64,000 nt of DNA from an uncultured Muribaculaceae bacterium. Its GTDB lineage: Bacteria > Bacteroidota > Bacteroidia > Bacteroidales > Muribaculaceae. The notes beneath the pieces are model-generated. The model was not told the DNA's origin. It ran no database searches and worked only from the letters and a program-made list of their open reading frames with translations. This document shows positions 3,323 through 20,152 of the stretch, piece after piece. The position numbers and the translations under genes are program-made. The DNA is taken from NCBI GenBank assembly GCA_947525975.1, contig CANNVE010000002.1, positions 62,001 through 126,000 on the forward strand, written 5' to 3'. How positions within the stretch are numbered: position 1 is the first letter of the stretch; every line of letters starts with the position of its first letter.

Positions 3323-6300
3323 CTAACTTGCGAAAAGGTATCCGCCATTTTGAGATGCACGGATAATGAATTGATTACATAGAAGTTCATTTTTCTCTCT
3401 GAATGTTGTACGGTCGTAGCAGTCCGGCAACGTCATGTCAAGAGTATCTCTAACGAACAAGATGAAGGAGCTTTTCTTAGAACTATCTTTATACCAATCA
3501 GTGGTAAACAGCTGGTCTTGATTTGACTTCAATTTTGAAAGCAAATCACGGGCGGCAGCTTTCACTTTAACGACATCTTCTTTTGAGAGATTTTCCTTGC
3601 GGAGTATATCAAACACTTCAAGTTCTTCTTCCGTAAGACCCTCTTCGGATGCGCGGCGTTGTTCAGCCGACATACGTGTGAGCAGCTCCATCAGTTCTCG
3701 GAATGCTTGCTCAGATTCTGTGCTGCCGGCATTATAACGGTCGATAATGCGTTGAAATTCCTCTGCAAAAGTGCGACGCTCGCTGTTTTGATTGAGCATT
3801 GCATCGAGTTTTTGCGAGATGAAATCTTCAAGATCAGCGATTTCAAGTGCTTTGCACTTTGATTCGCCGTATTGTTCACGGAGTTTGTCTATATCAAGAC
3901 GGCTAAGGTCAAATTCTCCAAACTCCTTGATAGTGTACTCTCTATTCTCAGCCGGGCCGTCACCTTTCGGCACAATACTCTGATTGAGCAAATCTTTGAT
4001 GCGGCGACGAGCAGAATCAAGATTGCCACGGTCAACTGAGTTATCTATAACTTGTCGGAGGTAATGGATAACCTCAGCCATCACAAAATCTTCTTTGATG
4101 CTTATAATGTCGGGCAAACATTCATCATAAATCAGTGAAATGGTGTTGTCGAACACCGCGAATTGAGCCTTGCGTTCAACAGGATTTATGAGAATGTTTG
4201 CGTATTGGTCAAAGAGTGAGATTTGATTAAAAGCTTTATTGAGGTTGAGAATCTTATGTAAATCGACATCAAGCCCACGGCACCATTCCACGCACTGAGA
4301 AATGGCAGAACGAAGATGAGCATATAGTTCATCAAGTGTCATAGCCGCAGGGGTATTGCCTCCGGGGGTGTCTGCGCCGGGACTATCGGACTCCTCCTCG
4401 TCACCGTCTCCTTGCGTATCTCCATAGGTGGCAAAAGCTTTTTTCAGACTGCCGAAGATGTTGCAGTAAGAGATAATCTGACCGCACGATTTTTCTCGTC
4501 CAAGCGCGTCAAGAGTTGAGCATCGACGATTGGCACGCGCGATAGTCTGCATAAGATTTTGCCCTGCAAGAGGCTTATCCATATAAAGAGTTGACACCAT
4601 TGGAGAGTCGAAGCCAGTGAGCCACATAGAGCATACAAAAACAATCCGCAGAGGGTTGTTTTCAACTCGAAATTGGTCTTGCAATTCCTGTCCTTCTTCG
4701 TTAACATCGATCATACGCTCGCGATGAGGACGAAGGTTTAGACCTTCGGCAGCAAAGCGTTCATCATCGCCTTGGCTTTCGCTGATTACTACGGCCATAT
4801 CGGTAGAGCGCATCCACTCACGGATTTTCAACTTGTCCTGATACTCTGCCGATGTAGGATTGAGCGACATCAGTTCGTGGTTGATGTCGGCAATCTTTTG
4901 CTGCCATTTAGCGGTGACAAGGTCATACATTCTGACAGCGGTAAAGCGGTCAACGCTTACCACCATTGCCTTGCCGAGATAGCCACGGTTTATGATATGC
5001 TCCACTATATCATCAGCAATCTTGGCAAGACGCGCCGGACGGCGGAGTATTTCAAGCTCCTTGGCATACTCGCGTTCGAGGCGTTGACGGCTGTCATCAT
5101 CAAGTTCTTCATCTTGAAGAATATTGATGAAGTCGGCATTGAACGTCGGATTTTCATTCTGCACCTCAGGCAGGTGGTTGCGATAAGTGAGGCGCACGGT
5201 GGCATCATCCTGCACAGCCTGACTGAAATTATATTCGCTGACCGTTTCGCCAAACCATTTGTTGGTGAGTTTTTTACTTCCGAAAAGCGGCGTGCCGGTA
5301 AACGCCATATACTTGGCGTTAGGCAACCCTGCCCTGAGATTTTCAGCAAGCGATTTATATTGTGTGCGATGAGCCTCATCGATAAAAACAATGATATCAT
5401 CTCGTTCTGAGAGAATGGGATATTTTTTGCGTTTATCGTAGCGGAATTTCTGAATAAGCGTAAAGAGTATGCGGTGATCTTCTTTTTCAAGCATAGTACG
5501 GAGACGGTCGCTTGTTTTAGGCTGGCAGTCTTCGTCCGCACTCATAAAGCCGCTATGCAAAAAGTTGCGGTAAATCTGACTGTCGAGGTCTTCACGGTCG
5601 GTAATGATAAGGAACGTGAAATTACCCGGGAAGCGGTTTTTAAGCAAGCGGGCGAGGTACACCATTGAGAAACTTTTGCCGCTTCCCTGTGTGTGCCAGA
5701 ACACGCCCATCTTTCCGCGGTCTTCTTCGCGAGGAGAGCCGCAAAGATATTTATAACGTTCGACGGCTCTGCTCACTCCAAGGAATTGATGATTTTTGGC
5801 ACATATCTTTTTGGTGCCGTTGTAGAAAAGGATATAATTGTGGATGTAGTCAAGCAAATTTTCCTTTTCCAGTAACGAGTGAGCCATTACATCAAGACTG
5901 ATTTTCTCGCTTTCGATTTCATCTTTGTTGATTTTATCCTCCTCGGAAGCTCTGAACCAAGGGGCGAAAAAAGCCCAGTCGGCATAAGTCGCACCTATGC
6001 GGGTATGCAAGCCATTGCTCGCAACGAGCACGGCGTTATAGGCCATAAGTTGAGGAATGGCATCTTTGTATCTTGTCAAGTTGTTGGAGAAAGCCTCCTT
6101 GACAGGAATGTTGCTATCTTTTAACTCAATGGTTATGAGCGGCAGTCCATTGACATATACAATGACATCAGGGCGCAGACGGTAAACATAGCCTTGGATC
6201 CAAAGTTGGTTGACAACATCGAATTGGTTACTTGTCGGTTTCTCCCAATCTATGAATTGCACGGTGCGTGGCTCACGTTTGCCGTTGGCTTGAAGCACCG

Positions 6301-6619
6301 GCATCTTATAGCCGTTGATAATCCGCGAAAGGATTGTGGCGTTGAGCGTAGCCGGGTCGGAGTGCAGGTCAATGTCATTAAGTGCGGCCACGGCTGTATT
6401 CACATCTGCGTCATCGAAGCCTTGCTGTCGGTCGGTGGCCGAAGCATTTATGCGCTTGACCTCGCGGCGGAGTACGTCGAGGTTAAGCACACCGCGCTCC
6501 GAGCTGCGATGCAAGTGGTCGGTAGCATAGCAATTGAAATGATTGTCGTAGCCCAATTCATTGAGGCATACATTAATCAGTTCTCTCTCTATATCATCTT
6601 CCTTAATAAAGTATCTCAT
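3323..6619 (-). CDS. hsdR: Type I restriction endonuclease subunit R
   Basis: 1098 aa; VFWHTQGSGKSFSMVYLA Walker A, IVFIDEAHRTQ DEAH box, MAFTGTPL, N-terminal nuclease region ITIELKDSN. Confidence 0.96.
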   Translation of the reverse strand: MRYFIKEDDIERELINVCLNELGYDNHFNCYATDHLHRSSERGVLNLDVLRREVKRINASATDRQQGFDDADVNTAVAALNDIDLHSDPATLNATILSRIINGYKMPVLQANGKREPRTVQFIDWEKPTSNQFDVVNQLWIQGYVYRLRPDVIVYVNGLPLITIELKDSNIPVKEAFSNNLTRYKDAIPQLMAYNAVLVASNGLHTRIGATYADWAFFAPWFRASEEDKINKDEIESEKISLDVMAHSLLEKENLLDYIHNYILFYNGTKKICAKNHQFLGVSRAVERYKYLCGSPREEDRGKMGVFWHTQGSGKSFSMVYLARLLKNRFPGNFTFLIITDREDLDSQIYRNFLHSGFMSADEDCQPKTSDRLRTMLEKEDHRILFTLIQKFRYDKRKKYPILSERDDIIVFIDEAHRTQYKSLAENLRAGLPNAKYMAFTGTPLFGSKKLTNKWFGETVSEYNFSQAVQDDATVRLTYRNHLPEVQNENPTFNADFINILQDEELDDDSRQRLEREYAKELEILRRPARLAKIADDIVEHIINRGYLGKAMVVSVDRFTAVRMYDLVTAKWQQKIADINHELMSLNPTSAEYQDKLKIREWMRSTDMAVVISESQGDDERFAAEGLNLRPHRERMIDVNEEGQELQDQFRVENNPLRIVFVCSMWLTGFDSPMVSTLYMDKPLAGQNLMQTIARANRRCSTLDALGREKSCGQIISYCNIFGSLKKAFATYGDTQGDGDEEESDSPGADTPGGNTPAAMTLDELYAHLRSAISQCVEWCRGLDVDLHKILNLNKAFNQISLFDQYANILINPVERKAQFAVFDNTISLIYDECLPDIISIKEDFVMAEVIHYLRQVIDNSVDRGNLDSARRRIKDLLNQSIVPKGDGPAENREYTIKEFGEFDLSRLDIDKLREQYGESKCKALEIADLEDFISQKLDAMLNQNSERRTFAEEFQRIIDRYNAGSTESEQAFRELMELLTRMSAEQRRASEEGLTEEELEVFDILRKENLSKEDVVKVKAAARDLLSKLKSNQDQLFTTDWYKDSSKKSSFILFVRDTLDMTLPDCYDRTTFREKNELLCNQFIIRASQNGGYLFAS

Positions 6620-6632
6620 TGCGGCAAACGAT

Positions 6633-7790
6633 TTAAGGTGTCACTTCAAGCTGACCGCTCATAAGTTGAGGCAACAAACGGTCGCGCATCTGCTGAAGTT
6701 GGGAATTTTTAGAGGTTAGAATTTCCATTTCATCGACAATAGGGGAAATTATATCGTCGAATTGCTGTATTATCTTTAGAGAAGGAATCAGAAGAAGCTG
6801 TTTCCTTATTGCAGATGGCTTTAAATGCAGTACATTGGAACCATTAGCAAACTCGGAAATAAACTTACTATATCCACCAAATCTAAACATCGTATATAAA
6901 AAGATATTAGGAAGTTTAGACTTGACTCTTGCTAAATCGGTGGAAATTATAGCCGTTTCAGAGTATTCTGGAATAAGCGTGACAGCTCCAACCGTGCGGC
7001 GGTCTTGCGTCATATCAGTTACACCCATAACCAAATCACCTTTTTTTACTATATGCTGAGGTTTGTAATTGCCTGCAAATAGTTTCAAACCATCATAGTT
7101 GTAGCCACCGTATGATTTGATGTTTTTTAGATTGATTAGTTTTACACCCTCAGTAACATCTATTTCTTCGGAAGTATAAGAGCAACCTCTGTCAAATTTA
7201 ATAAATTCTTCCAGTTGCTTGTATTCCCAACCTTTGGGTAAGCCATCGACAAACTCGGTGGTTTCGTGGCCGGGGAAGCGGAAAAACACAAACCACTCAC
7301 GATATGTACGCATAGCCATTTCTTCCAAAATTGCTATGCGCTTATTGTTTAATTCAATACTATCATCATAGTTTGTTAAAATTGAAACAATTTTTTGTTG
7401 AGAGACTAATGAAGGTATCTCTATTGCAATGTTTCTAATCAAAGAGGGTGTTACATGAGGAATTGCCGACCCTCTTTGAGAATGACTTAATTCAGATTGC
7501 TTGCTTTTCAACAAGTAATAAAGAAAGTCATGATCTATATTTTTTGTGGGGTCTATGATAAAACCATCGGTTACGAATATGGGTTCTTTCCAAAATGAAA
7601 CATATCCAGCAGATGCTCCACTTCGAGAAATAACAATAGTTTTCCCATCTCTGTTATATTGATTAATGTAATACGCAGGAGCTTTGCCACCAAGAATTAC
7701 AGGATATGGGCCTACAGTAGCATCTTTACGAGTGATTGCTTTCCCTTTCTTAATGGAAATTACATCTCCGAATTTGCAGTGATGCCACAT
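6633..7790 (-). CDS. hsdS: Type I restriction specificity subunit S
   Basis: Two TRD halves with SQQKIVSILTNYDDSIELNNKRIAILEEMA conserved helices; overlaps hsdM stop. Confidence 0.94.
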   Translation of the reverse strand: MWHHCKFGDVISIKKGKAITRKDATVGPYPVILGGKAPAYYINQYNRDGKTIVISRSGASAGYVSFWKEPIFVTDGFIIDPTKNIDHDFLYYLLKSKQSELSHSQRGSAIPHVTPSLIRNIAIEIPSLVSQQKIVSILTNYDDSIELNNKRIAILEEMAMRTYREWFVFFRFPGHETTEFVDGLPKGWEYKQLEEFIKFDRGCSYTSEEIDVTEGVKLINLKNIKSYGGYNYDGLKLFAGNYKPQHIVKKGDLVMGVTDMTQDRRTVGAVTLIPEYSETAIISTDLARVKSKLPNIFLYTMFRFGGYSKFISEFANGSNVLHLKPSAIRKQLLLIPSLKIIQQFDDIISPIVDEMEILTSKNSQLQQMRDRLLPQLMSGQLEVTP

Positions 7791-9613
7791 TATATACCAA
7801 ACTTATTAAGGTTTTCAATAATGTTCTCCATTAGCTCATTGCTTCTATCGTTCAAAGCGCAGAGTTCAGATTTGAGAGAGGTCATACTTTCGCGGAAATC
7901 GTTGAGGTCTTCAACGTCGAAGATGACACCGACATAGCGACCGGGGTTGAGCGAGTAGTCCTGTTCGCGAATTTCTTCAATGGAGGCTGCTTTGCAAAGG
8001 CCGATAACATCGCGATACTTGCCGTCGGGGAAGTTGTCTATAAGCCATTGGCGCATAGAAGTTAAATGGTTTAACTCTTTTTTGGCCTCGGCCAAAGCGG
8101 TTTCGGCTGCATCAATACGGCGTTTGATGTCGTTTTTAAGATTTTTGCCGGGATTTTCCGACAGGGATGTTTTAGCTTCGAGGGTTGCTGCTTTTTTTTC
8201 TTCAACGCAACTCTCATATTTGGTGGTCAAATCGTGGATGCGGTTGTCGTAATGCGACATTAGCAAGTGCCAATAGGCTTCATCACCTTGGTAAATGTGA
8301 CGGATGCAAGCGAGGTTGGCGACATGCTCATCGGTAAACTCTCGATGTGCGCGGTCAACCTGTTTATAGAAATTGCGGGCGTTGATGAAAAGCACACGCT
8401 TATCCTCGCGTCGTGCTTTGTCAAAGAACCAAATAGTGGCAGGCAGCGTGACAGAGAAGAACATATTGCTCGGCAGTGAAAGCATCGCGCTCACAATGCC
8501 GTCCTCAACCAAACGGGCGCGTATCTCGGCCTCCGACTTGCCGGCATCTGTGGCAATCGAAGCCATAACGAGAGCTGCTCGCCCGGTGTCATTAAGTGCC
8601 GTGGCGAATTGATTTATCCAAAGATAATTTGCATTAGGCACGGTTTCTCCATCCTTGCTCTTGGATTTGGTCTTGTTTTTTGGTATGCCAAATGTATTGA
8701 ATCGAGGGTCATCCTTTACTTTGTCGTAGCTTACATCATCAACATTAAAAGGAGGATTTGCCATTACAAAATCAAACGTGCCAAATGAATTGTGAGGGTC
8801 GCTGTAATAGCTGTTGGCTTGAACTATGTTCCCGTTCAAGCCGTGGAGGAACATATTCATTCGGGCGAGCTTTACGGTTTCGTTTTCTTTCTCGATACCA
8901 TAAACGCTGATACGGTCGGGGCGGTCGTTGCTGCGCTGAACGAAGTCGGCACTTTGCACGAACATACCGCCCGAACCACAGGCAGGGTCAAGGATGCGTC
9001 CTTGATATGGCTCTATCATTTCAACCATGAGACGGACAACGGAGGTCGGGGTGTAATATTCACCGCCACCTTTGCCCTCACTGCTTGCGAATTTGCCGAG
9101 GAAATACTCGTAAACCTTACCGAATACGTCACCCTCCAAATCACGAGGAATTGAATTGATGATTTTCAGAAGCGAGGCAGTGAGCGAATAGTCGCGTATG
9201 TTTTCGCCGTCTTCCTTAGGTTCAAGATTGAAATATTCATCTTTGGGGAGTGAGCCTACGAGTTCGGGCTTGTGTTGCTCTATACCCTCCATTGCCTGTT
9301 TGATAGCAAGGGGAATATCCTCTTGCTCGCTCAAACTAAGTAAATAGTCAAAATGAGATTTCTCCGGCAGATAATATCCGCATTTGCTCAAAGCGATTTC
9401 CTCACGTGTTTTCGGGTTACGGGTATTCTGTGAAGCGGAATATTCGGCTTCAATCTCATCTTTGAACTTATCGTATTTGTTTGATGCAAAACGTAGGAAT
9501 ATTAGCCCCAATAATGGGGTTGAATATTGTGTCGATTTAAGACCGCTCTCTGAACGCAACTTGTCTGCTGCTTCCCACAGTCTATCCTCAAATTGTTTCA
9601 GCTCCTCTGCCAT
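7790..9613 (-). CDS. hsdM: Type I DNA methyltransferase subunit M
   Basis: N-6 MTase motifs ILDPACGSGGMF and FDFVMANPPFN. Confidence 0.96.
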   Translation of the reverse strand: MAEELKQFEDRLWEAADKLRSESGLKSTQYSTPLLGLIFLRFASNKYDKFKDEIEAEYSASQNTRNPKTREEIALSKCGYYLPEKSHFDYLLSLSEQEDIPLAIKQAMEGIEQHKPELVGSLPKDEYFNLEPKEDGENIRDYSLTASLLKIINSIPRDLEGDVFGKVYEYFLGKFASSEGKGGGEYYTPTSVVRLMVEMIEPYQGRILDPACGSGGMFVQSADFVQRSNDRPDRISVYGIEKENETVKLARMNMFLHGLNGNIVQANSYYSDPHNSFGTFDFVMANPPFNVDDVSYDKVKDDPRFNTFGIPKNKTKSKSKDGETVPNANYLWINQFATALNDTGRAALVMASIATDAGKSEAEIRARLVEDGIVSAMLSLPSNMFFSVTLPATIWFFDKARREDKRVLFINARNFYKQVDRAHREFTDEHVANLACIRHIYQGDEAYWHLLMSHYDNRIHDLTTKYESCVEEKKAATLEAKTSLSENPGKNLKNDIKRRIDAAETALAEAKKELNHLTSMRQWLIDNFPDGKYRDVIGLCKAASIEEIREQDYSLNPGRYVGVIFDVEDLNDFRESMTSLKSELCALNDRSNELMENIIENLNKFGI

Positions 9614-9623
9614 AGTTAAAAAC

Positions 9624-9718
9624 GAAAACTCCCACGTAGCATCTGAAGGCTGACCTTATCGAGCTATGCTCGCTTTGCAACCGCAAAGAATGCCTGTAAC
9701 GACTACACTGGAGTTTTC
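9624..9718 (-). ncRNA. Putative structured 5' leader of hsdM (four-way-junction-like)
   Basis: Outer stem gaaaactcc/ggagttttc (9 bp, extendable with G-U pairs) enclosing three consecutive hairpins aagg-ctga-cctt, cgagc-tat-gctcg, ctttgc-aacc-gcaaag; lies between promoter and start codon. Confidence 0.55.
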
Positions 9719-9793
9719 AAAGGTTTTTCGGCTCGCGCCAGTTGTATTTTCTATTAATTGGTCATTTTCAGATAGACGTTACTATTCCTTTTA

Positions 9794-9824
9794 CAAAATT
9801 ACACATTTTATTTGAGGGAGACAA
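9794..9824 (-). promoter_or_regulatory. Bacteroidetes-type promoter for hsdMSR
   Basis: Reverse strand TTG (9824-9822), 20 nt, TAATTTTG (9801-9794), matching TTTG/TAnnTTTG. Confidence 0.6.
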
Positions 9825-9843
9825 GGCGTTGAGAGAGAAAAAA

Positions 9844-9890
9844 GTAGCTCTACACTGGGCAAACATAGGATTTGGCGGGTGTGGAGCTAC
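9844..9890 (-). terminator. Rho-independent-like terminator after prophage gene block
   Basis: Inverted repeat gtagctctacac ... gtgtggagctac followed on reverse strand by TTTTTTCTCTC. Confidence 0.65.
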
Positions 9891-9900
9891 CATGTGAGGA

Positions 9901-10659
9901 TTATTCCTCCGGAGTATAGATGCATTTCAGGCGGGTGAGGGAGTGGGCGTGGCGGAGGGAGTCGCGGTAGGCGATGTCCTGTTGCCAGCGGCCGGTCTGC
10001 CAGTCGCGGTATTGCTTGGGGAAGTTTTCGCGGTAGAATTGTCCGAAGGCGACGGCTTCGGCGTTGTCCTCATACCAGTGGTCGAGGTGCTCTATGCGGT
10101 TTTCATAATCGCGCCTTGTATCCGAAGCGGAGCGTGACACGAGGATGCTGCCCATTATACATATGCCGACAACTAAGCCTACAATTCCGAAGGTGGGAAG
10201 GTGCAGTCGGAACACATCGGTCCAACTCTTGAAGTTGTCATCGAGTCGCTTACGGTCATCATCGGAAAGAGTTGCTTCAATGGCTGTCGGGATTGAGTCG
10301 AGCTGCCGTTCCAACCGGTCATGGAAGATGGCGCGGGTCGTCGCTTCGTCGCGTAGCATCATACGGATTTCATAGGCGTGACCAAAGTCTTTCATGGTGT
10401 CGTCGTCGTCATCCCATGCTCGCTTCTTGCCTTTCTTTACGAAATGGTCGAACTCGAACTGATACTTGTTCTTTCCTGTGCGGACATCTACGAGGCCGCC
10501 GCCTTCTTCGAGGGCTTCGGTCTCTGTGCCGGCAGTCGGGGTCAGCTTTGTGGTTGTGTCTTTGGGCACGTCGATTTCTTTCCACCCTGCGTCGGTGGGT
10601 GCGCCGTCCACTGAAGCAGTGGTTTCAATCGCGCATTTGCCCCATGAGAGTTGTGACAT
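9901..10659 (-). CDS. Chimeric ORF: phage tail-tube-like N-terminus joined to mobilization-like membrane protein C-terminus
   Basis: N-term MSQLSWGKCAIE...KYQFEFDHFVKKGK tail-protein-like; C-term TM IVGLVVGICIMGSILV plus FGQFYRENFPKQYRDWQTGRWQQDIAYRDSL resembling Bacteroidales mobilization proteins. Confidence 0.5.
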   Translation of the reverse strand: MSQLSWGKCAIETTASVDGAPTDAGWKEIDVPKDTTTKLTPTAGTETEALEEGGGLVDVRTGKNKYQFEFDHFVKKGKKRAWDDDDDTMKDFGHAYEIRMMLRDEATTRAIFHDRLERQLDSIPTAIEATLSDDDRKRLDDNFKSWTDVFRLHLPTFGIVGLVVGICIMGSILVSRSASDTRRDYENRIEHLDHWYEDNAEAVAFGQFYRENFPKQYRDWQTGRWQQDIAYRDSLRHAHSLTRLKCIYTPEE

Positions 10660-10686
10660 AGTCTTTCGTGTTAAATTGTTAGTTAC

Positions 10687-11238
10687 TTATTTTTTTTGCA
10701 CTATCGGCGTAACGATGACATCCGCTCCATCCTCTGTCTCAAGCAAAGGGAAGTAGCCGTCATCATCGTCTGTGTCTGTCGCGTCGATCATTGCGTCCTG
10801 CGGTGTCTTTATCGGAGCGTTGTCGTGTCCGAAATACTCGTATTTCAGCTTGACGACCACGAAGTGCTGATTTATCTCCGCCGCTTCCTCCGTGTAGATG
10901 GTCTGCTGCAGCTTGAACTTGTAGCAGGAGACCTCTGCCGTGAGGCTGTCTGCCCATGCCTGCGCGAGTTTCTCCATTTCCTCGGTTCTGCGTCCGTCCT
11001 CGACCCATGTTCCGTTTCTGAATGGGTCAATGTCCGGGACGTAGATGTTTACTGTCACGACACCCGTTTGGATTTGGTCGGGCAGTCCGGCAGTAAAGGT
11101 TACGACAGCGTCCTCCTTGCGGCTGTCGCGTGGGCGGTAGCCGTTTCGGTACACCTCTCCCGATATCTCCGCGTAAAGGGTGGAGTCTTTCAAGAGGCGG
11201 CGAATGTCGCCTTGTATCTGCTTTCCTGTCTTTGCCAT
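10687..11238 (-). CDS. Phage neck/tail-completion-like protein
   Basis: Position between neck and tail tube genes; 183 aa. Confidence 0.5.
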   Translation of the reverse strand: MAKTGKQIQGDIRRLLKDSTLYAEISGEVYRNGYRPRDSRKEDAVVTFTAGLPDQIQTGVVTVNIYVPDIDPFRNGTWVEDGRRTEEMEKLAQAWADSLTAEVSCYKFKLQQTIYTEEAAEINQHFVVVKLKYEYFGHDNAPIKTPQDAMIDATDTDDDDGYFPLLETEDGADVIVTPIVQKK

Positions 11239-11245
11239 TGTCGTT

Positions 11246-11686
11246 TCACATAAATCCGAGTTGTTTCAGCATCCGAGGCACAAGCCTGTCAGCGAGGAGT
11301 TCCGCGCTGTCTATGACATCTCGCCCGGTCGCCGAGACGTGGGCTGCGTAGTTCATTCCGGCCACCACCACGAGGACTATGCCCTCCGGGAATTGCCGGA
11401 CTATCTGCTTCGCGAATTGGATTCCGGTTTTCGCTCCGTCGCCGCCTTTCTTGACCACCTCGAAGTTGCTCTGATAAACTATCTTGCCATCGCTTGCGAT
11501 GACGTATCCGATCGAACTGCGGAGGTTGCCTGTCTGGTCTTTGTAGGAGTTGGTCTCCCTTGCAGCGTTTAGGCATCGCTCCCCGACGTACTGCAAATTG
11601 TAGATGAGCGCATTGATTATCCGCTCCATCTGCTGCGCAATGTATTCGTCGATTTCCGACATTGGTGTCTTCTGAACGATGCCCAT
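11246..11686 (-). CDS. Phage gp10-like/neck protein
   Basis: Position and size (146 aa), alpha/beta pattern typical of HK97 gp10-like proteins. Confidence 0.5.
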   Translation of the reverse strand: MGIVQKTPMSEIDEYIAQQMERIINALIYNLQYVGERCLNAARETNSYKDQTGNLRSSIGYVIASDGKIVYQSNFEVVKKGGDGAKTGIQFAKQIVRQFPEGIVLVVVAGMNYAAHVSATGRDVIDSAELLADRLVPRMLKQLGFM

Positions 11687-11696
11687 ATTTACCGTG

Positions 11697-12026
11697 CTAT
11701 ATTAAAATTTTGATTTCGGCCACGGCTTCCAATGCTTCCGGCGGCGCGATCAGCGAGAATTCTCCGATGGTTTTCCCGGTTTTGTCATTCAGTCGCAGCT
11801 GCTCGGCTTCGGGCAGGGGCTGTTCCTCTATTAGCACCGTGTAGGTGGCTTTCGTTGTCGGTTCGCCCAGTGTCTTCGCCAAGAGGTTGCGGTTGATTGG
11901 CAGGAACTGACAAGGGATAGGCTTGCCCCAACCGACCGAGGTCGGCTTTTCGGGGTAGCCTGTCTCCGGGTCAATCTTCGCAGTGGTCTTCTGCTTGAAT
12001 TCGATTGTGCCGTTTTCGATAATCAT
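11697..12026 (-). CDS. Phage head-closure-like protein
   Basis: 109 aa, small beta-rich ORF in head-neck module, overlaps upstream ORF. Confidence 0.45.
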   Translation of the reverse strand: MIIENGTIEFKQKTTAKIDPETGYPEKPTSVGWGKPIPCQFLPINRNLLAKTLGEPTTKATYTVLIEEQPLPEAEQLRLNDKTGKTIGEFSLIAPPEALEAVAEIKILI

Positions 12027-12355
12027 AGACGGTCTCCTTTGTATCCGAAGGTCGCGCCGACGGCATTCGCACCCGGCTCAAGTTCATCATATATCGCTTG
12101 TGCGTCCCTTCTGAACTGCTTGCGCTGCTCGTCCGTGAACGAGTAGGACTGACCGCCCTGCGTGATGTTGGGGGCAAGCGATAGCCAAAGCAGGAGGTCT
12201 GCTTTGGCAAGGCGGTGTTCCTTGCTATTCAGACTCTCCTGCGAGGCATCAGCGGTAAGCGAAAGATTGCGCCGTTCCGCTGTCTCCACGAGTGTACGCA
12301 GCGGTATCGGATAAGCGTTTACGCTCTTGAGTGCGTCGAGATTGGTGTTTGCCAT
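12023..12355 (-). CDS. Phage head-tail connector-like protein
   Basis: 110 aa helical ORF directly downstream of major capsid. Confidence 0.5.
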   Translation of the reverse strand: MANTNLDALKSVNAYPIPLRTLVETAERRNLSLTADASQESLNSKEHRLAKADLLLWLSLAPNITQGGQSYSFTDEQRKQFRRDAQAIYDELEPGANAVGATFGYKGDRL

Positions 12356-12378
12356 TGGTGCTTCGCGTCAGATGGTTG

Positions 12379-13476
12379 TTACGTCCACTCCGTCTTGTCG
12401 GTGCGGACGTAGATGTTGCGGTATGCGGTATCGAGAACGGGGATTGCGTCTGCTTCGCCGATAGTGACCTCGCCTTTCGGTTCGATCGTTCCGTATTTCT
12501 TGATGACGGTGTGGGCGCGGACAGCGCGGATGATGCTGTGGCTTGCGTCATCGTCTTCGAGGATGTCGTATTGGGTTGAGCCCAGTCTCTCAGTCTCGGA
12601 AAGGATAATGCGGTGGTCGGCGAAGGGGTTGCCTGTGATGTCCGGCTTGTCATCGAATTCGCGTGTGATGTCTTGGTCGATAACTCGCAGCTGAAGACCG
12701 CCCAGCCACGCCTGTTCCTTGAGCATGGAGTTGATTTGGGCAAGGTTCGGGGTCTGCGAGATGTTGAGGGCATTCGACGCGAACGAGGCGCAAGCCTTGA
12801 CGATTTGGTCTGCCGACGCAATGCGGTAGACCTCGTTGAGGTTGACGAAAGCAAACCGGGGATTGCGTCCGAGCTTCTTCGCTTCCTCGCGGATTTTTAC
12901 GAGATCGCCGATGATGTCGGCAGACGCGTGATCGCCCCAATCGGTCAGGGCTGTCACTTTCTGCTCATCGTCCACGTCGTAGTCGAGGTCGAATTCGTTG
13001 GCGAAGGTGGCGTTTGTCGTGGTCGTGAAAGCCAATTTTCCTGCGTTGGAGGCTAATGCCCACACGATGTATTCAAGCTCAGACTGCACGCCGACTGCGC
13101 AAAAGTCGATGTCTTCGCCCCAAAACTCGACCAGCGCTGTTGCGTCATCGTCTTTGGCGAGGGCGCGCTCTGTCTGGTAGCGCTTCATGTCGGCGCACGT
13201 CATCTCACGCGAGATGGCGATGTAAGGCAGGTCGCCTTTCGCGCTTTGGAAGATGGGGCGGCGCTTGCGGATGATCGTGCCGTTGTCTGCGTGGAGGTCG
13301 GCGGCTACGTTCCTCTTGGCGAGCTGATTGGTCAGCATCTCCCAATTGAACCCGGTTCGCTTCTTTACAGGGAAGTATCTGCCGAAAAGGAAGGGCTTCA
13401 TGTCGAGGCTGTTGAGGCGCGCTGACACCATCTGCTGATTAAGCCCGTGGATAAGTGTATTGACTACTGTTGCCAT
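12379..13476 (-). CDS. Phage major capsid protein (E-family like)
   Basis: 365 aa; sequence pattern and position after decoration/head-fiber gene. Confidence 0.75.
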   Translation of the reverse strand: MATVVNTLIHGLNQQMVSARLNSLDMKPFLFGRYFPVKKRTGFNWEMLTNQLAKRNVAADLHADNGTIIRKRRPIFQSAKGDLPYIAISREMTCADMKRYQTERALAKDDDATALVEFWGEDIDFCAVGVQSELEYIVWALASNAGKLAFTTTTNATFANEFDLDYDVDDEQKVTALTDWGDHASADIIGDLVKIREEAKKLGRNPRFAFVNLNEVYRIASADQIVKACASFASNALNISQTPNLAQINSMLKEQAWLGGLQLRVIDQDITREFDDKPDITGNPFADHRIILSETERLGSTQYDILEDDDASHSIIRAVRAHTVIKKYGTIEPKGEVTIGEADAIPVLDTAYRNIYVRTDKTEWT

Positions 13477-13491
13477 TGCTGCTTGTGGGGA

Positions 13492-14061
13492 TTAGAGGTT
13501 GATGATTCCTTTCAGCTTGTCGACAATGAAGCCGGGGACGGGGTTGTTGCGAGTCACGCCGACCACCCATGCGTCTGTCTGGATGTTTGATTTGGAGTCG
13601 AAGGGCTGTCCTGTGCCGTTGATTGACTGAGGCTCGTATTTGAGCGCGGAGTCTGCGGTGGCTTCGGCTTTGGCTTCAACGATGAAGCCGCCGACGGGGA
13701 TTGCCCCGAGCGCGGTCTTTACCGTGATTGCGTCAAACTTCTTGTTGCTCTCGTCGATTGCTGTGATTGCATGAGCCGCTCCGTTAAGCGAGGTCATGAC
13801 TATGTCGCCCACCTTGAAGTTGTGGAACTTGGAGACCTTGATGGTCGTGTCGGCTGCGGCTGCCTCTGCGACCACCTCGCCGGTCTTGACGACGTGAGTG
13901 ACTCCCTCGATGGGGGCGCCCAGTACCGCGCCTTCCCGGAGGTAATTGCCGCCGAGCTCCGATGTGGCCACAGATACGCCACCGCGCACGTCGGCCACCT
14001 TGTGGATGACGTACCTGGGCGTCAGGTCGTCGCGTCTTTTTTTGACGGTCATTCTTGCCAT
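13492..14061 (-). CDS. Phage head fiber/decoration-like protein
   Basis: 189 aa, immediately upstream of major capsid gene, ends in structural-protein-like repeat. Confidence 0.55.
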   Translation of the reverse strand: MARMTVKKRRDDLTPRYVIHKVADVRGGVSVATSELGGNYLREGAVLGAPIEGVTHVVKTGEVVAEAAAADTTIKVSKFHNFKVGDIVMTSLNGAAHAITAIDESNKKFDAITVKTALGAIPVGGFIVEAKAEATADSALKYEPQSINGTGQPFDSKSNIQTDAWVVGVTRNNPVPGFIVDKLKGIINL

Positions 14062-14085
14062 TTGTCTGCGTTTTTAGGATTGAAC

Positions 14086-14763
14086 TTAAAAAGGCTGCTG
14101 TCCATCCGCGAAAGCGCCGTCTCGCTTCGAGATGGCGGCTATCTGCGCTTCTGACAGCTCCGTTGTTGTTAGTCCGCCTGTTGAAGCGGAGGGCTTCCCG
14201 AATACAGCCCCTTTTGCGGCAGTCTCGTTGGCTATGCCTTCGACCTCGGTCGTAACCTCGCCCAGCATGGTTGTGAATTCCTCGTCGGTGTATTTGTCGA
14301 GAGAGATTCGCCCATATGCCTTTCGCATGGTTTCGGGCAGTTTCTCGATGACTGCGTTAAGCTTCTGCTTTCGGGTTTCGGTGGTTCGGGCTGCGTCCTG
14401 CGCGTCGAGGCGATCGAATAGTTTCTGCGCCCACGCAGGGATTTCGTCCGCTTCCCCGGTGGTTTGATTGGTTGCGCCGCCTGTCGGCTCGCCCCCGGCT
14501 GTGTTGGTCTTCACTCCGTCTTTCAGCCCATAGCGAGTCTCGTAGTCCTTGACAGCGTTCTCACGCGCTGTGTTTGACGCTTCGGTCGCACGGCTGTCTC
14601 CGTAGCTTTCGATGACCTGCTGAATGGTCACTCCCTCTACTGCGGTCTTGACCTGTTCTGCGGTTGTGGCAGTCTTCGCGAGCTTGGTCGCTATCCTGTC
14701 GAGGATTGAAGTCGATACCCCCGGATACTTGGTTGTAAGGGCTTCTAAAATTACTTTTTTCAT
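14086..14763 (-). CDS. Phage capsid scaffold-like protein
   Basis: Likely start MKKVILEALTTKYPGVSTSILDRIA; helical, acidic, Gly/Thr linker, upstream of capsid gene. Confidence 0.55.
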   Translation of the reverse strand: MKKVILEALTTKYPGVSTSILDRIATKLAKTATTAEQVKTAVEGVTIQQVIESYGDSRATEASNTARENAVKDYETRYGLKDGVKTNTAGGEPTGGATNQTTGEADEIPAWAQKLFDRLDAQDAARTTETRKQKLNAVIEKLPETMRKAYGRISLDKYTDEEFTTMLGEVTTEVEGIANETAAKGAVFGKPSASTGGLTTTELSEAQIAAISKRDGAFADGQQPF

Positions 14764-15102
14764 CGCGATGATAAATGATATTTGTATGTTTTGTTGTCTC
14801 TGATGCTTGCTGTTGTTCATGTAGTCGCTCTGCATGCCTTTGGGGATTCATGAAAGGCGTTAGGCAAGGCCGTTTCGGGCAGTTTGGGCATTTCAAAAAT
14901 CTCATTATCAATGAATTTATCCCCAACTTTTGTCACTCTTCGTACACTATGACTTGACTGCTATTGCTTTTTTTTGATTACATATATTAACGTGAGTATT
15001 TTTTTTATGAAATGATAATGGCCGAATATTTTGATGCCCGGGTGTGAAAAACATCAAAATTTTTGCGTACTTTTGTGGCATAATACGTGAAATTCCAACT
15101 AA

Positions 15103-15312
15103 ATGACTTATACAGATATGACTGACCAAGAATTTGAAGAGATGTGGCGCAAATGCAAGGAACGCGACCGTCAGGAACGCGAAAAGTGGCTCGCCATGTC
15201 TAAACAGGAGCGAGACCAAATCAAGGAACGCACAAGAGGTTTCCGCTCTTGGGAAGATCTGACAGACTATGAGCCTACCGCTCCGTCAGATGAAACATCC
15301 ACAGACCGTTAG
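15103..15312 (+). CDS. Small charged protein (69 aa)
   Basis: MTYTDMTDQEFEEMWRKCKERDRQEREKW; opposite strand to head genes, preceded by TACTTTTG promoter-like motif near 15067. Confidence 0.5.
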   Translation: MTYTDMTDQEFEEMWRKCKERDRQEREKWLAMSKQERDQIKERTRGFRSWEDLTDYEPTAPSDETSTDR

Positions 15313-15400
15313 CGTCCTGTTCCACGCTCTCAAAGATGAACTGACCGCCTTTGTCGAACAGAACCTCTTGCTGATTTGGCTGTGGATGTTCCTCCTCTGA
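15269..15400 (+). CDS. Overlapping small ORF (43 aa) with hydrophobic C-terminus
   Basis: Translated by hand: MSLPLRQMKHPQTVSVLFHALKDELTAFVEQNLLLIWLWMFLL; overlaps the 69-aa ORF in another frame. Confidence 0.4.
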   Translation: MSLPLRQMKHPQTVSVLFHALKDELTAFVEQNLLLIWLWMFLL

Positions 15401-15441
15401 AAAGCCATTAACTTCTAATTTTATGATTGCTGTTTGTTTAT

Positions 15442-15472
15442 TTTGTAGTTTAAAGATTATTTCGTATCTTTG
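15442..15472 (+). promoter_or_regulatory. Bacteroidetes-type promoter
   Basis: TTTG (15442-15445), 19 nt, TATCTTTG (15465-15472). Confidence 0.7.
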
Positions 15473-15478
15473 CGGTGA

Positions 15479-15575
15479 GATAAGATCTAAATAATAAGAA
15501 TTGGCGAGGGCGTTGCCGTCGCCTGATTAATCTCATGCAGAGTCTTTGTTATTTCAAAGGCTCTGTTATTTCTTT
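15479..15575 (+). ncRNA. Candidate small RNA with own promoter and intrinsic terminator
   Basis: Stem TGAGAT/ATCTCA, nested GGCGA/TCGCC hairpin, then CAGAGTCTTTG-ttattt-CAAAGGCTCTG followed by ttatttcttt. Confidence 0.5.
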
Positions 15576-16877
15576 GATCTTGCCATCCCGAAATACTACA
15601 ATGATTCTCTTGATGGTTTCTCCTATGTTTGATCTTATTGCGTTTTCATTGTAAAATGAAGGATTATGAAAGTATAAAATTAGGCTGTCACAACTTGTGC
15701 CATTCAACTCATTGAATTTTCTAAGTTGTTTTTTCTTTGCTTTTATTCCATTTTTTATCGTATTGGTGTTATTCTCCGTTATCGACCTTATATCAATCCT
15801 CATCCTATTGGTTGTTGTATCTAATGAAGTAAGTTGTTTTCCAGTGAAGGGATTGTATATATGTTCACTCTCTAAAATGCAAGAATATCCATTATGGAAT
15901 AGTATATCTTGACATATCAATTCTAAATCCGTTGAGGATAGCCCGTCAGGATATTGTAAATCATGTAAAAAGAATTTCCGTTCACTTTCAGAACTATGAT
16001 TCTCGTGCTCGATGTGAATCGCCTTCACCCCTCCATTCTTAGGGTTAAACTCCACATCCTTGTATTGTGGATCAGATTTCAGGCGCTCATACTCCCTCCG
16101 GTTGGCTTCGATACGAGCCTCCGCTTCTGTTGATTTGGAAGCTTTATCATCGGAAGAAACAGGATTCCTCAATATCTCAGTTACCTTCTTTTGGTTATCC
16201 CTGATGAAATAAGGAAGTGTGCCGTGTTTCTCTCCGGCTTCGATGCGGTCGGCATTATCCTCCACCCAGTACTTGAAAGCTGCAGGAACGTCGCGCACGG
16301 TGTTCACGCTGCCCTTTGTTTGCTGTTCTCCGTTCAGTATTCGACGGGTGTCTTCCGCCATCTCGTCCTCGGTCTTAAGCACGGTTATCGCCTTGCAGCG
16401 GCAATGGGGATGCCACCCTACAAATTTGAAATCCTTGGGATAGCGTCCCGCGAGGGTGTCGCAGATGTCGGTCAGCGGAGCTCCGTTCAGCGTGTGGTTG
16501 TTGCTCAGTTTGATTTCTATGCCCACGACAAAGTCCATCTGCTGCCATCGCAAATGGTCGCTCGTGCGGTAGGCGATGTTGGTCTCCGTGGCGGCGAGTC
16601 TCCGGGCATTTTTGTAGCTGCTTCGGTACACTCCGCGCCCCGGGTGGAATGCTGCGGCTGCTTTGGAGAGTTTGAGGTTGCCGTGCTTGTCCCGGACGCG
16701 CCGGAAGAGTTTGTCAGGGTGCTGCAGGTATTGCCGGAGACTGCGCGTCATCTTCGCCGCGCTCTCGCCGGTGCGGATTCCCAAATCAAGCCCCAGTTCT
16801 ATCTCTCGCTTGAATGCGGTAGCGTACCTCCACACTCGATCGGAAAGGTTCAGCCCTTGCTCCGTCTTCTCACTCAT
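15549..16877 (-). CDS. MuF-like phage minor head protein with C-terminal toxin-like domain
   Basis: MuF region LFRRVRDKHGNLKLSKAAAAFHPGRGVYRSSYKNARRLAATETNIAYRTSDHLRW...HPHCRCKAI; AT-rich unrelated C-terminus from about residue 280. Confidence 0.75.
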   Translation of the reverse strand: MSEKTEQGLNLSDRVWRYATAFKREIELGLDLGIRTGESAAKMTRSLRQYLQHPDKLFRRVRDKHGNLKLSKAAAAFHPGRGVYRSSYKNARRLAATETNIAYRTSDHLRWQQMDFVVGIEIKLSNNHTLNGAPLTDICDTLAGRYPKDFKFVGWHPHCRCKAITVLKTEDEMAEDTRRILNGEQQTKGSVNTVRDVPAAFKYWVEDNADRIEAGEKHGTLPYFIRDNQKKVTEILRNPVSSDDKASKSTEAEARIEANRREYERLKSDPQYKDVEFNPKNGGVKAIHIEHENHSSESERKFFLHDLQYPDGLSSTDLELICQDILFHNGYSCILESEHIYNPFTGKQLTSLDTTTNRMRIDIRSITENNTNTIKNGIKAKKKQLRKFNELNGTSCDSLILYFHNPSFYNENAIRSNIGETIKRIIVVFRDGKIKEITEPLK

Positions 16878-16889
16878 CTTAACGAGGGC

Positions 16890-17228
16890 GATGCAACCGC
16901 AGAGGTGGCCGCTGAAATAGAGAGCGATTTGAAAGCGGAGGACAAGACTGCAATTGCCAAATCAAAAAGCCGCCGCCCTCCGCTGAATTTTGAGGAGATG
17001 GGCATATTGCCGGGCGCCGTCCTCTCATTTGTGAGAGACCCGAAAATTGCCGTTACCGTTGTCTCCGCAAAGAAGGTCTCGCATGAAGGTGTCGAGACAT
17101 CCCTTTCTCCGTTGACCGCAAAGTTGCTCGGTCGCGCTATGCTTGTGCAGCCGACACCTTATTGGGAGTTCAAGGGCGAGAATCTTCGCGACATCTATGA
17201 CCGTGTCTATCCCCTGTCTGACGATTAA
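16890..17228 (+). pseudogene. RAMA-like domain fragment
   Basis: NFEEMGILPGAVLSFVRDPKIAVTVVSAKKVSHEGVETSLSPLTAKLLGR...YWEFKGENLRDIYDRVYP resembles restriction/methylase-associated (RAMA-like) modules; no convincing N-terminal partner. Confidence 0.45.
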
Positions 17229-17410
17229 GGTTAGATCGCCCAAATAATCGCCACACGCCGCGTTTGCGGTCTTCCGTGGACACTTGTGCCACTCGAGGCG
17301 AAACAGCGCGACACGGCGCAAAGCAAAGGCCGGCAGGCCCATTCTCGCGTAAAGTGCATTCACGCCATGCCGCCGCCCCCGAAAGCCGGGCAATCGTGAG
17401 GCATAACAAA

Positions 17411-17441
17411 AGAGCGGAAGCCATTCGCCGGCCTCCGCTCT
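17411..17441 (-). terminator. Intrinsic terminator downstream of integrase
   Basis: agagcggaagcc-attcgcc-ggcctccgctct stem, followed on reverse strand by TTTGTTAT. Confidence 0.7.
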
Positions 17442-17460
17442 CGCATCGCATTTGTTCCCC

Positions 17461-18627
17461 TCAGTCCTTGTCTGTGTCGTTCGGCAGGATTGGGGGGATC
17501 AGCATTGCCGCCTCCTGCTTCTTCTTGTCCATCATGTGCGCGTAGATCAGGGTAGTGTGGATTTCCTTGTGCCCGAGAAGCTTCTGCACCGTGTAGATGT
17601 CAGCCCCGAGGTCGATCATCAGCACGGCGAATGTGTGCCGCCCGCTGTGGAAAGTTATGTCTTTCGTGATCCCTGCGCGCACCGCCCATCGCTTCAGCTC
17701 CATGAGGTAATATGACGAATAGGAGAAGTTCGGGAACACGTGGTCCTCCTCTCCCCGCCGCTCCCCCATGTAGGCTACCGCCTGGGGATTGATGTCGATG
17801 TATTCCTGTCCGCCCGTCTTCTTCTGCTTGAAGACGATTCTCGTAAACTCCCCCTGCTGCCTCACCTCTTTCCACTTCATCTTCTCGATGTCGCTCTTGC
17901 GGAGTCCCGTCAGGCACGAAAACATGAACGCCCTCTTCAGTATCGGGTACTTGCACTCTGCCGCCGCCATCGCCTTCACCTCGTCGAGCGTGAGGTACAC
18001 ACGCTCTCGCTCGTCCACCTTGAAGCCCTCGATCCCGCGCAGCGGATTTCGCGGCATCATTCCGTCCTCAAAGGCCTGGTTGATGCAAGCCCGGAGCTTG
18101 TTGAAGTATGAGACCTTGCTCGCGCTCGACAGCGGCTTGCGGTCTTCGGTCGTGGCCGCCTTCTTCCGCTTGTCCCGCACCCGAGCCGTGCGGTCGAGAT
18201 AGTCCTTGAATCCCTGCACGAATTCCGGCGTCACGTCCCTGAACGTCATCTCCGGGCGGCAGTATCTTTCGAGGTGCTTGAGCGCGCTGTACTAATTCCC
18301 CCAATTGCCGAGGCTCTCCGGGTTTTGGTGGCGCTTCTCGCAAAGCGTGCGGTAGTAGTCCAGGAAGTTCGCGTCGAGCCTGTATCCGCCATCGAAGCCG
18401 AAGCGCCCGTTCTGAAATTCTACCACCCTCTTGGCCCGGATCGCATCCGCGAGCTTGAGGGTCTCCTTGTTCTTCTCCTTGTCGGCTCTCGTCCTCTCCG
18501 GAATGAGATAGAGGCTGAGGTACTCATAGCTGCGCTTGCCATTGATGTAGATGTCGAGATAGAGCGAAGTGTTGCCGCTTGCCATCCTGCGCTGCCGGAG
18601 GCGTATCGGCTCCTTTGATTTTTCCAT
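17461..18627 (-). pseudogene. Tyrosine recombinase/integrase interrupted by in-frame TAG
   Basis: C-terminal catalytic residues R (TGLRKSD), HSGRHTFA, LGHKEIHTTLIYAH; N-terminal SAM-like half upstream in same frame; TAG at 18292-18294 between NWGN and YSALKHLERYC. Confidence 0.88.
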
Positions 18628-18811: not shown

Positions 18812-20152
18812 TCATTTACCGATGCAGAAGCGAGTGAAGATTGATTGGAGGATTTCGGGGGTGGTTATTTGGCCGAGGATTGAGGAGAGGTGGTCGATGG
18901 TGAGGCGGAGATCGATTGAGATGAGGTCGCCGCTGATGTTTGCTTCGAGGGCTTGGATCACCCGGGTGATTGATTGGGAGGACTGGAGCAGGGCTTGATG
19001 GTGGCGGGCGTTTGTGATTAGGATTTCTCCGGCGTGCGATGCGGCTTCTCGGGCGGCTGTGTCGGCGAGCAGTGCTTTCAGGCGCTCTATCCCTGATCCG
19101 GTCTTTGCCGATATGGCGCAGTCGATTGTGTCAGTGGATGCGGCTGTAGGGGGGAATTGGTCGGTTTTGTTCCATGCCCATATTACGCTGGCTGTTGTGG
19201 GGGGGGTTTGCGGGAGGGTGGGGTTGGAGCCATCGATGAGGGCTATGATTATGTGGGCGTTGGATGCGGCGCTGACGCTGCGCTGTATGCCGAGGTTTTC
19301 TATTGTGTCTGAGGTCTGGCGCAGTCCTGCCGTGTCCATGAGCCGGAACGTGTATCCTCCGATCGTGATGGTGTCTTCTACAATGTCGCGGGTGGTGCCG
19401 TGGATGTCAGAGACTATTGCGCGGTCGTCGCCGAGCAGGGCGTTGAGGAGCGATGATTTCCCGGCGTTTGTGGCTCCGATTATTGCCACCGGGATGCCGT
19501 TTTTTATGGCTGAGCCTGTGCGGAATGATTCTGACAGGCGCTCTACTTCGGCCTTTACCTGACGGGCTATCTGCAGCAATGCTTCGCGTGAGGCGAACTC
19601 CACGTCTTCCTCCGAGAAGTCGAGTTCGAGCTCAAGTAGTGAGGCGAGTTGCAGCAGTTGGTCGCGCAGTTGCTGCAGGCGAGATGAGAATTGGCCTCTC
19701 ATCTGGCTGATGGCAATGCGGTTGGCCTCGCGGCTTTGGCTCGCTATCACGTCGGCCACAGCCTCGGCCTGCGCGAGGTCGAGCTTGCCGTTGGCGAATG
19801 CGCGGCGTGTGAATTCGCCGGCTTCGGCCATGCGGGCTCCGGCTTTTATCAGTGAGTTGAGTATTTCTCTTTGCACGTAGGCCGAGCCGTGGGTCGATAT
19901 CTCCACGGTGTCTTCGCCGGTGAATGATGCCGGCGCTCTGAATACTGTGGCCACGGCCTGGTCGAGTTCTCCGCCGTCCGAGTCCATTACTGATCCGTAG
20001 TGGGCCGTATGGCTTTTGGCGTGGCTCAATGGCAACCCTTGCCAGATGGCGTCGGCTATTGCTATGGCAGCGGGGCCTGATATTCGGGCTACGGCTATGC
20101 CTCCTGTCCCCGCAGGGGTAGAGATTGCGGCTATCGTGTCGGTGTTTGTCAT
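18812..20152 (-). CDS. mnmE: tRNA modification GTPase MnmE
   Basis: MTNTDTIAAISTPAGTGGIAVARISG, GATNAGKSSLLNALLG, DTAGLR, C-terminal FCIGK. Confidence 0.98.
   Translation of the reverse strand: MTNTDTIAAISTPAGTGGIAVARISGPAAIAIADAIWQGLPLSHAKSHTAHYGSVMDSDGGELDQAVATVFRAPASFTGEDTVEISTHGSAYVQREILNSLIKAGARMAEAGEFTRRAFANGKLDLAQAEAVADVIASQSREANRIAISQMRGQFSSRLQQLRDQLLQLASLLELELDFSEEDVEFASREALLQIARQVKAEVERLSESFRTGSAIKNGIPVAIIGATNAGKSSLLNALLGDDRAIVSDIHGTTRDIVEDTITIGGYTFRLMDTAGLRQTSDTIENLGIQRSVSAASNAHIIIALIDGSNPTLPQTPPTTASVIWAWNKTDQFPPTAASTDTIDCAISAKTGSGIERLKALLADTAAREAASHAGEILITNARHHQALLQSSQSITRVIQALEANISGDLISIDLRLTIDHLSSILGQITTPEILQSIFTRFCIGK

Follow-up and report, generated by a model that had tools for sequence, protein, structure and literature searches.

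The closest functional analogues of the leader described here are the RNAs of AbiF and ToxIN, which have one cognate protein each (PMC12373285). Like our leader, abiF RNA (RCd22) and the type III toxin-antitoxin RNA ToxI are structured RNAs that precede a defence gene, separated from it in ToxIN by a terminator; however, they bind a single cognate protein family, whereas unrelated proteins follow the present leader, which also has no Rfam match to abiF RNA. Control of restriction-modification (R-M) gene expression is likewise exerted by the antisense-RNA and C-protein circuits of EcoRI and Eco29kI, but these are type II systems, while our leader is a sense-strand element common to types I, II, IIG and III. 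A 2013 review of restriction-system regulation covers reverse promoters and antisense RNA, and the terms 'riboswitch' and 'attenuation' never occur in it (PMC3874152).

Riboswitches and other structured 5' leaders resemble the element in position, in their compact pseudoknotted fold, in forming a multi-copy regulon, and in having a basal P1 helix that adjoins a U-tract and start codon (the expression platform). They differ in that the present family has no Rfam match and serves defence rather than metabolism or transport. Amino-acid attenuators such as Bacteroid-trp share with it a short upstream open reading frame (uORF) and a terminator-like stem, but here the uORF spans 2-9 codons without a run of codons for a single amino acid, and is not universal. 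Restriction systems need to be held back on entry to a new host or in an unprotected genome, and we know of no account of how Bacteroidales restrain theirs. Here we describe what appears to be a new family of pseudoknotted leader RNAs, found in Muribaculaceae and more rarely in other Bacteroidales, which probably controls or restrains R-M and related defence operons in an attenuator- or riboswitch-like manner.

The hsdM locus and the fold of its leader

The window (the whole 64,000-nt stretch of DNA that was analysed) carries a type I restriction operon with the following surroundings:

9794-9824, minus strand: Bacteroides-type promoter, read directly (TTG at 9824-9822, 20-nt spacing, TAATTTTG at 9801-9794)
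9613-9611, minus strand: hsdM start codon, ATG
7790-9613, minus strand: hsdM, 607 aa, first gene of the type I operon (Pfam N6_Mtase and HsdM_N)
6633-7790, minus strand: hsdS (Pfam Methylase_S)
3323-6619, minus strand: hsdR (Pfam HSDR_N, SWI2_SNF2 and T1RH-like_C)
12379-13476, minus strand: prophage major head protein
15549-16877, minus strand: prophage head morphogenesis protein
17461-18249, minus strand: prophage tyrosine integrase
18812-20152: mnmE/trmE

The prophage genes belong to a remnant (9901-18249, minus strand) that separates the restriction operon from the 3' terminus of mnmE/trmE, which we take to be a known type of island insertion site. Just 5' of the promoter is an inverted repeat with 20-nt arms (9844-9890), probably a terminator that parts the restriction operon from the prophage remnant.

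A sequence-only reading of this region had proposed a promoter at 9794-9824 and, between it and the hsdM ATG, a 95-nt cloverleaf (9624-9718) in which a closing stem holds three perfect hairpins in a four-way junction. The promoter boxes are indeed of the Bacteroides type when read on the minus strand, a TAnnTTTG box also lies upstream of the leader in the aligned family members, and it is from this box that we would place the 5' end of the transcript. The closing stem is present as a 9-bp helix between GAAAACTCC (9718-9710) and GGAGTTTTC (9632-9624) on the minus strand, as are two of the hairpins (CTTTGC-ggtt-GCAAAG, 9688-9673, and CGAGC-ata-GCTCG, 9672-9660). The third (AAGG/CCTT) gave way, in both the minimum free energy (MFE) fold and the covariation, to a helix of AGGC (9695-9692) with GCCT (9650-9647) that encloses both perfect hairpins. 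The four-way junction is therefore unsupported, and a cloverleaf is neither what folds nor what the family conserves. Although 9624-9718 is thus genuinely structured, it is only the 3' half of an element of about 160 nt that runs from the mRNA 5' end, with conserved sequence and pairing partners reaching upstream to about 9782. The transcript strand folds at -36.2 kcal/mol, compared with -22.5 ± 3.0 for shuffled sequences (z = -4.56; none of 200 shuffles as stable), and the opposite strand less stably (-31.5 kcal/mol). A tRNA-like cloverleaf was rejected, ARAGORN having called no tRNA or tmRNA gene in the window.

Architecture of the element

Comparison of family members points to a core made up of a basal helix, P1, and a hairpin, P2, onto which the 5' end of the transcript is predicted to pair at three places, namely both sides of the P1/P2 internal loop (A-A', B-B') and the P2 loop (C-C'), in a triple pseudoknot. 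The parts in the window are, in transcript order:

9777-9782, minus strand: element A (GTAACG), close to the 5' end of the mRNA, partner A' (covariation)
9768-9773, minus strand: element B (ATCTGA), partner B' (covariation and swapped sets)
9760-9763, minus strand: element C (GACC), partner C' in the P2 loop (about 94% of cells hold standard pairs)
9754-9765, minus strand: possible 3-codon uORF (ATG ACC AAT TAA), overlapping element C
9729-9740, minus strand: hairpin P0 (TGGC-gcga-GCCG; 91.5% of cells paired, two-sided changes at 4/4 pairs)
9710-9718, minus strand: P1a 5' strand, GAAAACTCC (two-sided changes at 8/8 modelled pairs, 91% of cells paired)
9703-9706, minus strand: P1b 5' strand (GTAG), pairing with 9639-9636 (97% of cells paired)
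9696-9701, minus strand: A' (CGTTAC), forming the 5' side of the internal loop between P1 and P2 (covariation)
9692-9695, minus strand: P2 5' strand (AGGC), pairing with 9650-9647 (94% of cells paired, 4/4 two-sided)
9673-9688, minus strand: E1, optional hairpin extending the P2 loop, CTTTGCGGTTGCAAAG
9660-9672, minus strand: E2, optional hairpin extending the P2 loop, CGAGCATAGCTCG
9652-9655, minus strand: C' (GGTC) in the P2 loop (covariation)
9647-9650, minus strand: P2 3' strand (GCCT; covariation)
9641-9646, minus strand: B' (TCAGAT), forming the 3' side of the internal loop between P1 and P2 (covariation)
9636-9639, minus strand: P1b 3' strand (CTAC; covariation)
9624-9632, minus strand: P1a 3' strand, GGAGTTTTC (covariation)
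9618-9623, minus strand: U-tract after P1 (GTTTTT), a terminator-like or initiation-region element

Elements A and B comprise about six pairs each and lie about three nucleotides apart. A' and B' would face each other across a single internal loop that separates P1b from P2. The 5' strand should be able to run down one side of this loop and up the other, then reach the P2 loop through C, in which case all the helices could coexist. The two perfect hairpins of the sequence-only reading are E1 and E2, so that an optional extension of the P2 loop had been taken for the core of the element. Both occur in about 16 members among those read, most of the family being without them, and when present they always lie between the P2 strand and GGTC. 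Each shows a compensatory change, TTGC/GCAA to TCGC/GCGA in E1 and C-G to T-A in E2 (L092).

A second optional module, consisting of two CCGGCTTGCCGCTTGGCTTTGCCAAG-like hairpins, is seen between element C and P0 in some of the members (L007, L093, L095, L118 and L122). At L185 (1501-1573) the leader of an hsdM-like gene keeps B, C and P0 and has lost the P1/P2 domain; such a natural deletion would be a useful control.

Covariation of the core and the pseudoknot

Across an alignment of 100 family members, 88.2% of cells are paired under the full structure, compared with 29-46% in slid controls, and two-sided changes occur in 32 of the 37 pairs. Cells with two-sided changes number 208, against 49.8 in shuffles; kinship can inflate shuffle-based results of this kind, and is retained in the slid controls. 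Because only P0, P1 and P2 guided the alignment, A-A', B-B' and C-C' constitute a test that is independent of the fit. Taken alone, these pseudoknot pairs are formed in 82.6% of cells (slid controls 19-54%, all lower), with 44 two-sided cells compared with 15.8 in shuffles, and on four of five measures none of 500 shuffles matched them (2/500 on the fifth). At several A-A' positions, 13-39% of the sequences do not form the pair in this alignment. G-U pairs are common at variable positions of P1, with 23, 13 and 13 of 100 sequences carrying them at three pairs.

Individual members exchange both partners together, and B changes wherever B' departs from TCAGAT. Swapped B-B' sets include TACTCTC/GAGAGTA (L153, L173), TATGCG/CGCATA (L151, L166, L172), CCAGA/TCTGG (L165) and, from another bacterial family, TACCGC/GCGGTA (L178), while GCAGAC/GTCTGC and GCTGAC/GTCAGC were read directly from the sequences of L191 and L192. 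For A-A' the swap is TTAAGC/GCTTAA (L149/L151). Random re-pairing reached the observed complementarity in 0 of 2000 trials for B-B' and 0 of 1000 for A-A'. Forms of C-C' that were read directly are GACCAA/TTTGGTC and the full-length variants GGCCAAA/TTTGGCC (L008) and GGCCGAA/TTCGGTC (L010). We conclude that the leader is almost certainly a conserved structured RNA. Among the functions suggested from sequence alone for the hsdM structure, a cis-regulatory RNA is the one supported by the covariation check run here on homologous leaders, in which covariation is strong and G-U pairs are tolerated, as well as by the fixed site between promoter and start codon and the U-tract after the basal stem.

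Distribution of the family

A nucleotide search of 61 genomes returned related promoter-leaders in the same genus before different genes. At L022, whose HsdM is 95% identical, the leader is without the two perfect hairpins and precedes a DnaB-like gene, with hsdM the next gene after it. A covariance model built from nine sequences (R1) matched 113 of 297 Muribaculaceae genomes, in 18 of 30 genera and with up to six copies per genome. Homologous contigs that bear names identify this family, to which the window belongs, as Muribaculaceae. Models of 100 members (R2) and with more divergent members added (R3) extend the element to a small number of further families of Bacteroidales (G436, G059, G655, G506), where it is rare; two among the weakest order-level matches (L188, L189) look like ordinary terminators. 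Among 396 phylum-level (Bacteroidota) genomes, only the window's own genome matched at E up to 0.01, a result that doubles as a specificity control.

That genome holds one strong copy and one weak, diverged copy. The latter (L191 1501-1630; G000:C5:90087-90216), picked up by the extended models, has diverged strongly and is followed after 14 nt by a gene for a C5 cytosine methyltransferase; the leader was undetected at three of the genome's four C5-methyltransferase loci (L195-L197). Collections of plasmid and phage records gave no match to the window leader, nor did plasmid records to the L085 leader; in IMG/VR one contig is a near-identical locus. An Rfam 15 cmscan of window positions 8500-11000 gave no match at E up to 1, and Rfam 15 yielded none of relevance in eight related loci and none at gathering scores in 20 further loci. 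A 2017 survey reportedly listed 224 candidate RNA motifs; our literature search found no description of the family, with a prior listing in that survey not fully excluded.

Genes downstream of the leader

By manual tally of clusters and family matches, restriction-modification or related defence genes are found in at least 83 of the 98 operons downstream, the base being members with a downstream ORF and either the first gene or the operon's second gene being counted. These include type I HsdM and HsdR, Eco57I/MmeI type IIG and type III Mod proteins, as well as type II systems, C5 and D12 methyltransferases, TdeIII endonuclease and GmrSD. Also counted are SNF2/ResIII helicases, OLD-like AAA ATPases, Z1, DUF6079 and a WYL regulator, and in other Bacteroidales families the leader stands before genes for HsdR, HsdM and an SNF2 helicase. 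Members that depart from this pattern are for the most part low-scoring matches or lie at contig edges, and weaker matches with no recognised defence gene downstream include L143, L145, L147, L161 and L162.

Two further ideas did not survive this tally. Protein-binding autoregulation by HsdM was rejected because many proteins with no relation to one another are encoded behind this leader. A dispersed repeat with no link to hsdM, which the initial reading had named as grounds for refutation, is at odds with copies which, although multiple, precede restriction and defence operons rather than random sites, with one strong and one weak copy in the home genome. Sensing of S-adenosylmethionine (SAM), also raised, does not fit members whose first gene is no methyltransferase.

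Placement and proposed mechanism

In most members the ATG follows 3-16 nt past the end of the model. Five or more T in the 8 nt after P1 are present in 86% of leaders compared with 24% of control upstream regions, and six or more in 63% compared with 8%; the control regions are A-rich instead. Such an arrangement argues for an output through termination and/or a block on initiation. The stem runs directly into the U-tract, as in an intrinsic terminator, but with its long structured 'loop' and A-U-rich base P1 is unlike a textbook one, and a simple terminator scan limited to loops of 3-8 nt, as would be expected, did not flag the site. No mutually exclusive antiterminator of comparable stability was found: a nested B+C alternative has a median of -4.0 kcal/mol compared with -17.1 for P1+P2, and a switch using B+C as antiterminator was set aside as energetically weak. 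The far greater stability of P1+P2 favours docking over mutually exclusive folds.

We propose that the P1/P2 hairpin forms beside the start codon and that the transcript's own 5' end then docks there, A to the 5' side of the loop, B to the 3' side and C to the P2 loop, to give a compact riboswitch-like fold. With P1 and the U-tract lying 3-16 nt 5' of the AUG, they would most likely restrain expression through premature termination and/or blocked translation initiation, a role we favour on balance. Docking of the 5' end would be the likely regulated step, set by a small molecule, a protein or a ribosome on the upstream AUG. We infer the off-state logic; what the analysis itself shows is the existence of the RNA family, how it pairs, where it lies and which genes it accompanies. 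The broader idea that one pseudoknotted RNA class, set before almost all types of restriction system and several further defence systems, reads a single cellular or infection signal and so switches every defence that Muribaculaceae, and certain other Bacteroidales, possess is more tentative.

Alternative explanations

A ribosome-sensing leader, in which translation of the short uORF (AUG-ACC-...-stop) competes with docking so that operons respond to changes in translation such as those in infection, would explain why an ATG stands at the B-C linker column in 78 of 100 members, where a ribosome would block docking, and why 94% of these frames reach a stop within nine codons, compared with 23% in the +2 frame. 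However, conservation of ATGACC is partly due to C-C' pairing and common descent, and divergent members (L153, L173, L178, L181 and L191) keep the pairings and not the ATG; universal uORF attenuation was rejected for this reason, and we regard ribosome sensing as unlikely. About equally unlikely is a 5' structure that merely enhances stability or translation, takes in no signal and is passed on together with the promoter as a cassette for expressing defence genes. The promoter box and leader are conserved together while sequence further upstream is not, as such a cassette would have it, but a triple pseudoknot and its compensatory upkeep go beyond what mRNA protection needs, and P1 and a U-tract so near the AUG should lower expression, not raise it.

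The leader might instead be released by termination at P1 as a separate stable RNA acting in trans, for example as an antitoxin or in complex with the protein encoded downstream. P1 and the U-tract are terminator-like, and AbiF and ToxIN likewise place a structured RNA ahead of the defence gene, which in ToxIN is set off by a terminator (PMC12373285). Against this, each operon has a single copy without tandem RNA repeats, and because the proteins downstream have unrelated folds (methyltransferases, helicases, HsdR, GmrSD, OLD-like ATPases), one RNA family is not plausibly cognate to them all, making a trans-acting RNA improbable. Less probable still is an element acting as DNA, whether a site for recombination or for an invertase, a mobile repeat or the target of a DNA-binding regulator. 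Its arms are inverted, copies occur in many genomic contexts and restriction operons are mobile, yet the well-scoring members always lie in sense orientation between promoter and first ATG, G-U is common at variable P1 pairs, the home genome has one strong copy, and the queries tried matched no plasmid or phage record. The crossing long-range pairings also lack a rationale in DNA, and the recombination site of the sequence-only reading is judged unlikely. We continue to prefer a cis-regulatory RNA that restrains the operon behind it.

Unfamiliar genes behind the leader

If this is correct, a single RNA module placed on unrelated restriction and defence operons would represent a general, transferable layer of immune control in abundant gut bacteria, and the leader would offer a search handle for new defence systems among the unfamiliar genes behind it (such as those at L157, L118 and L095). 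Proteins without a clear known defence family follow the leader at L157 (2189-4480), L118 (283-1989), L095 (2733-4913) and L111 (3634-4491), and we regard them as candidate defence genes. The L095 protein is dynamin-like, and that of L111/L124 is a 286-aa partner adjoining a type II methyltransferase.
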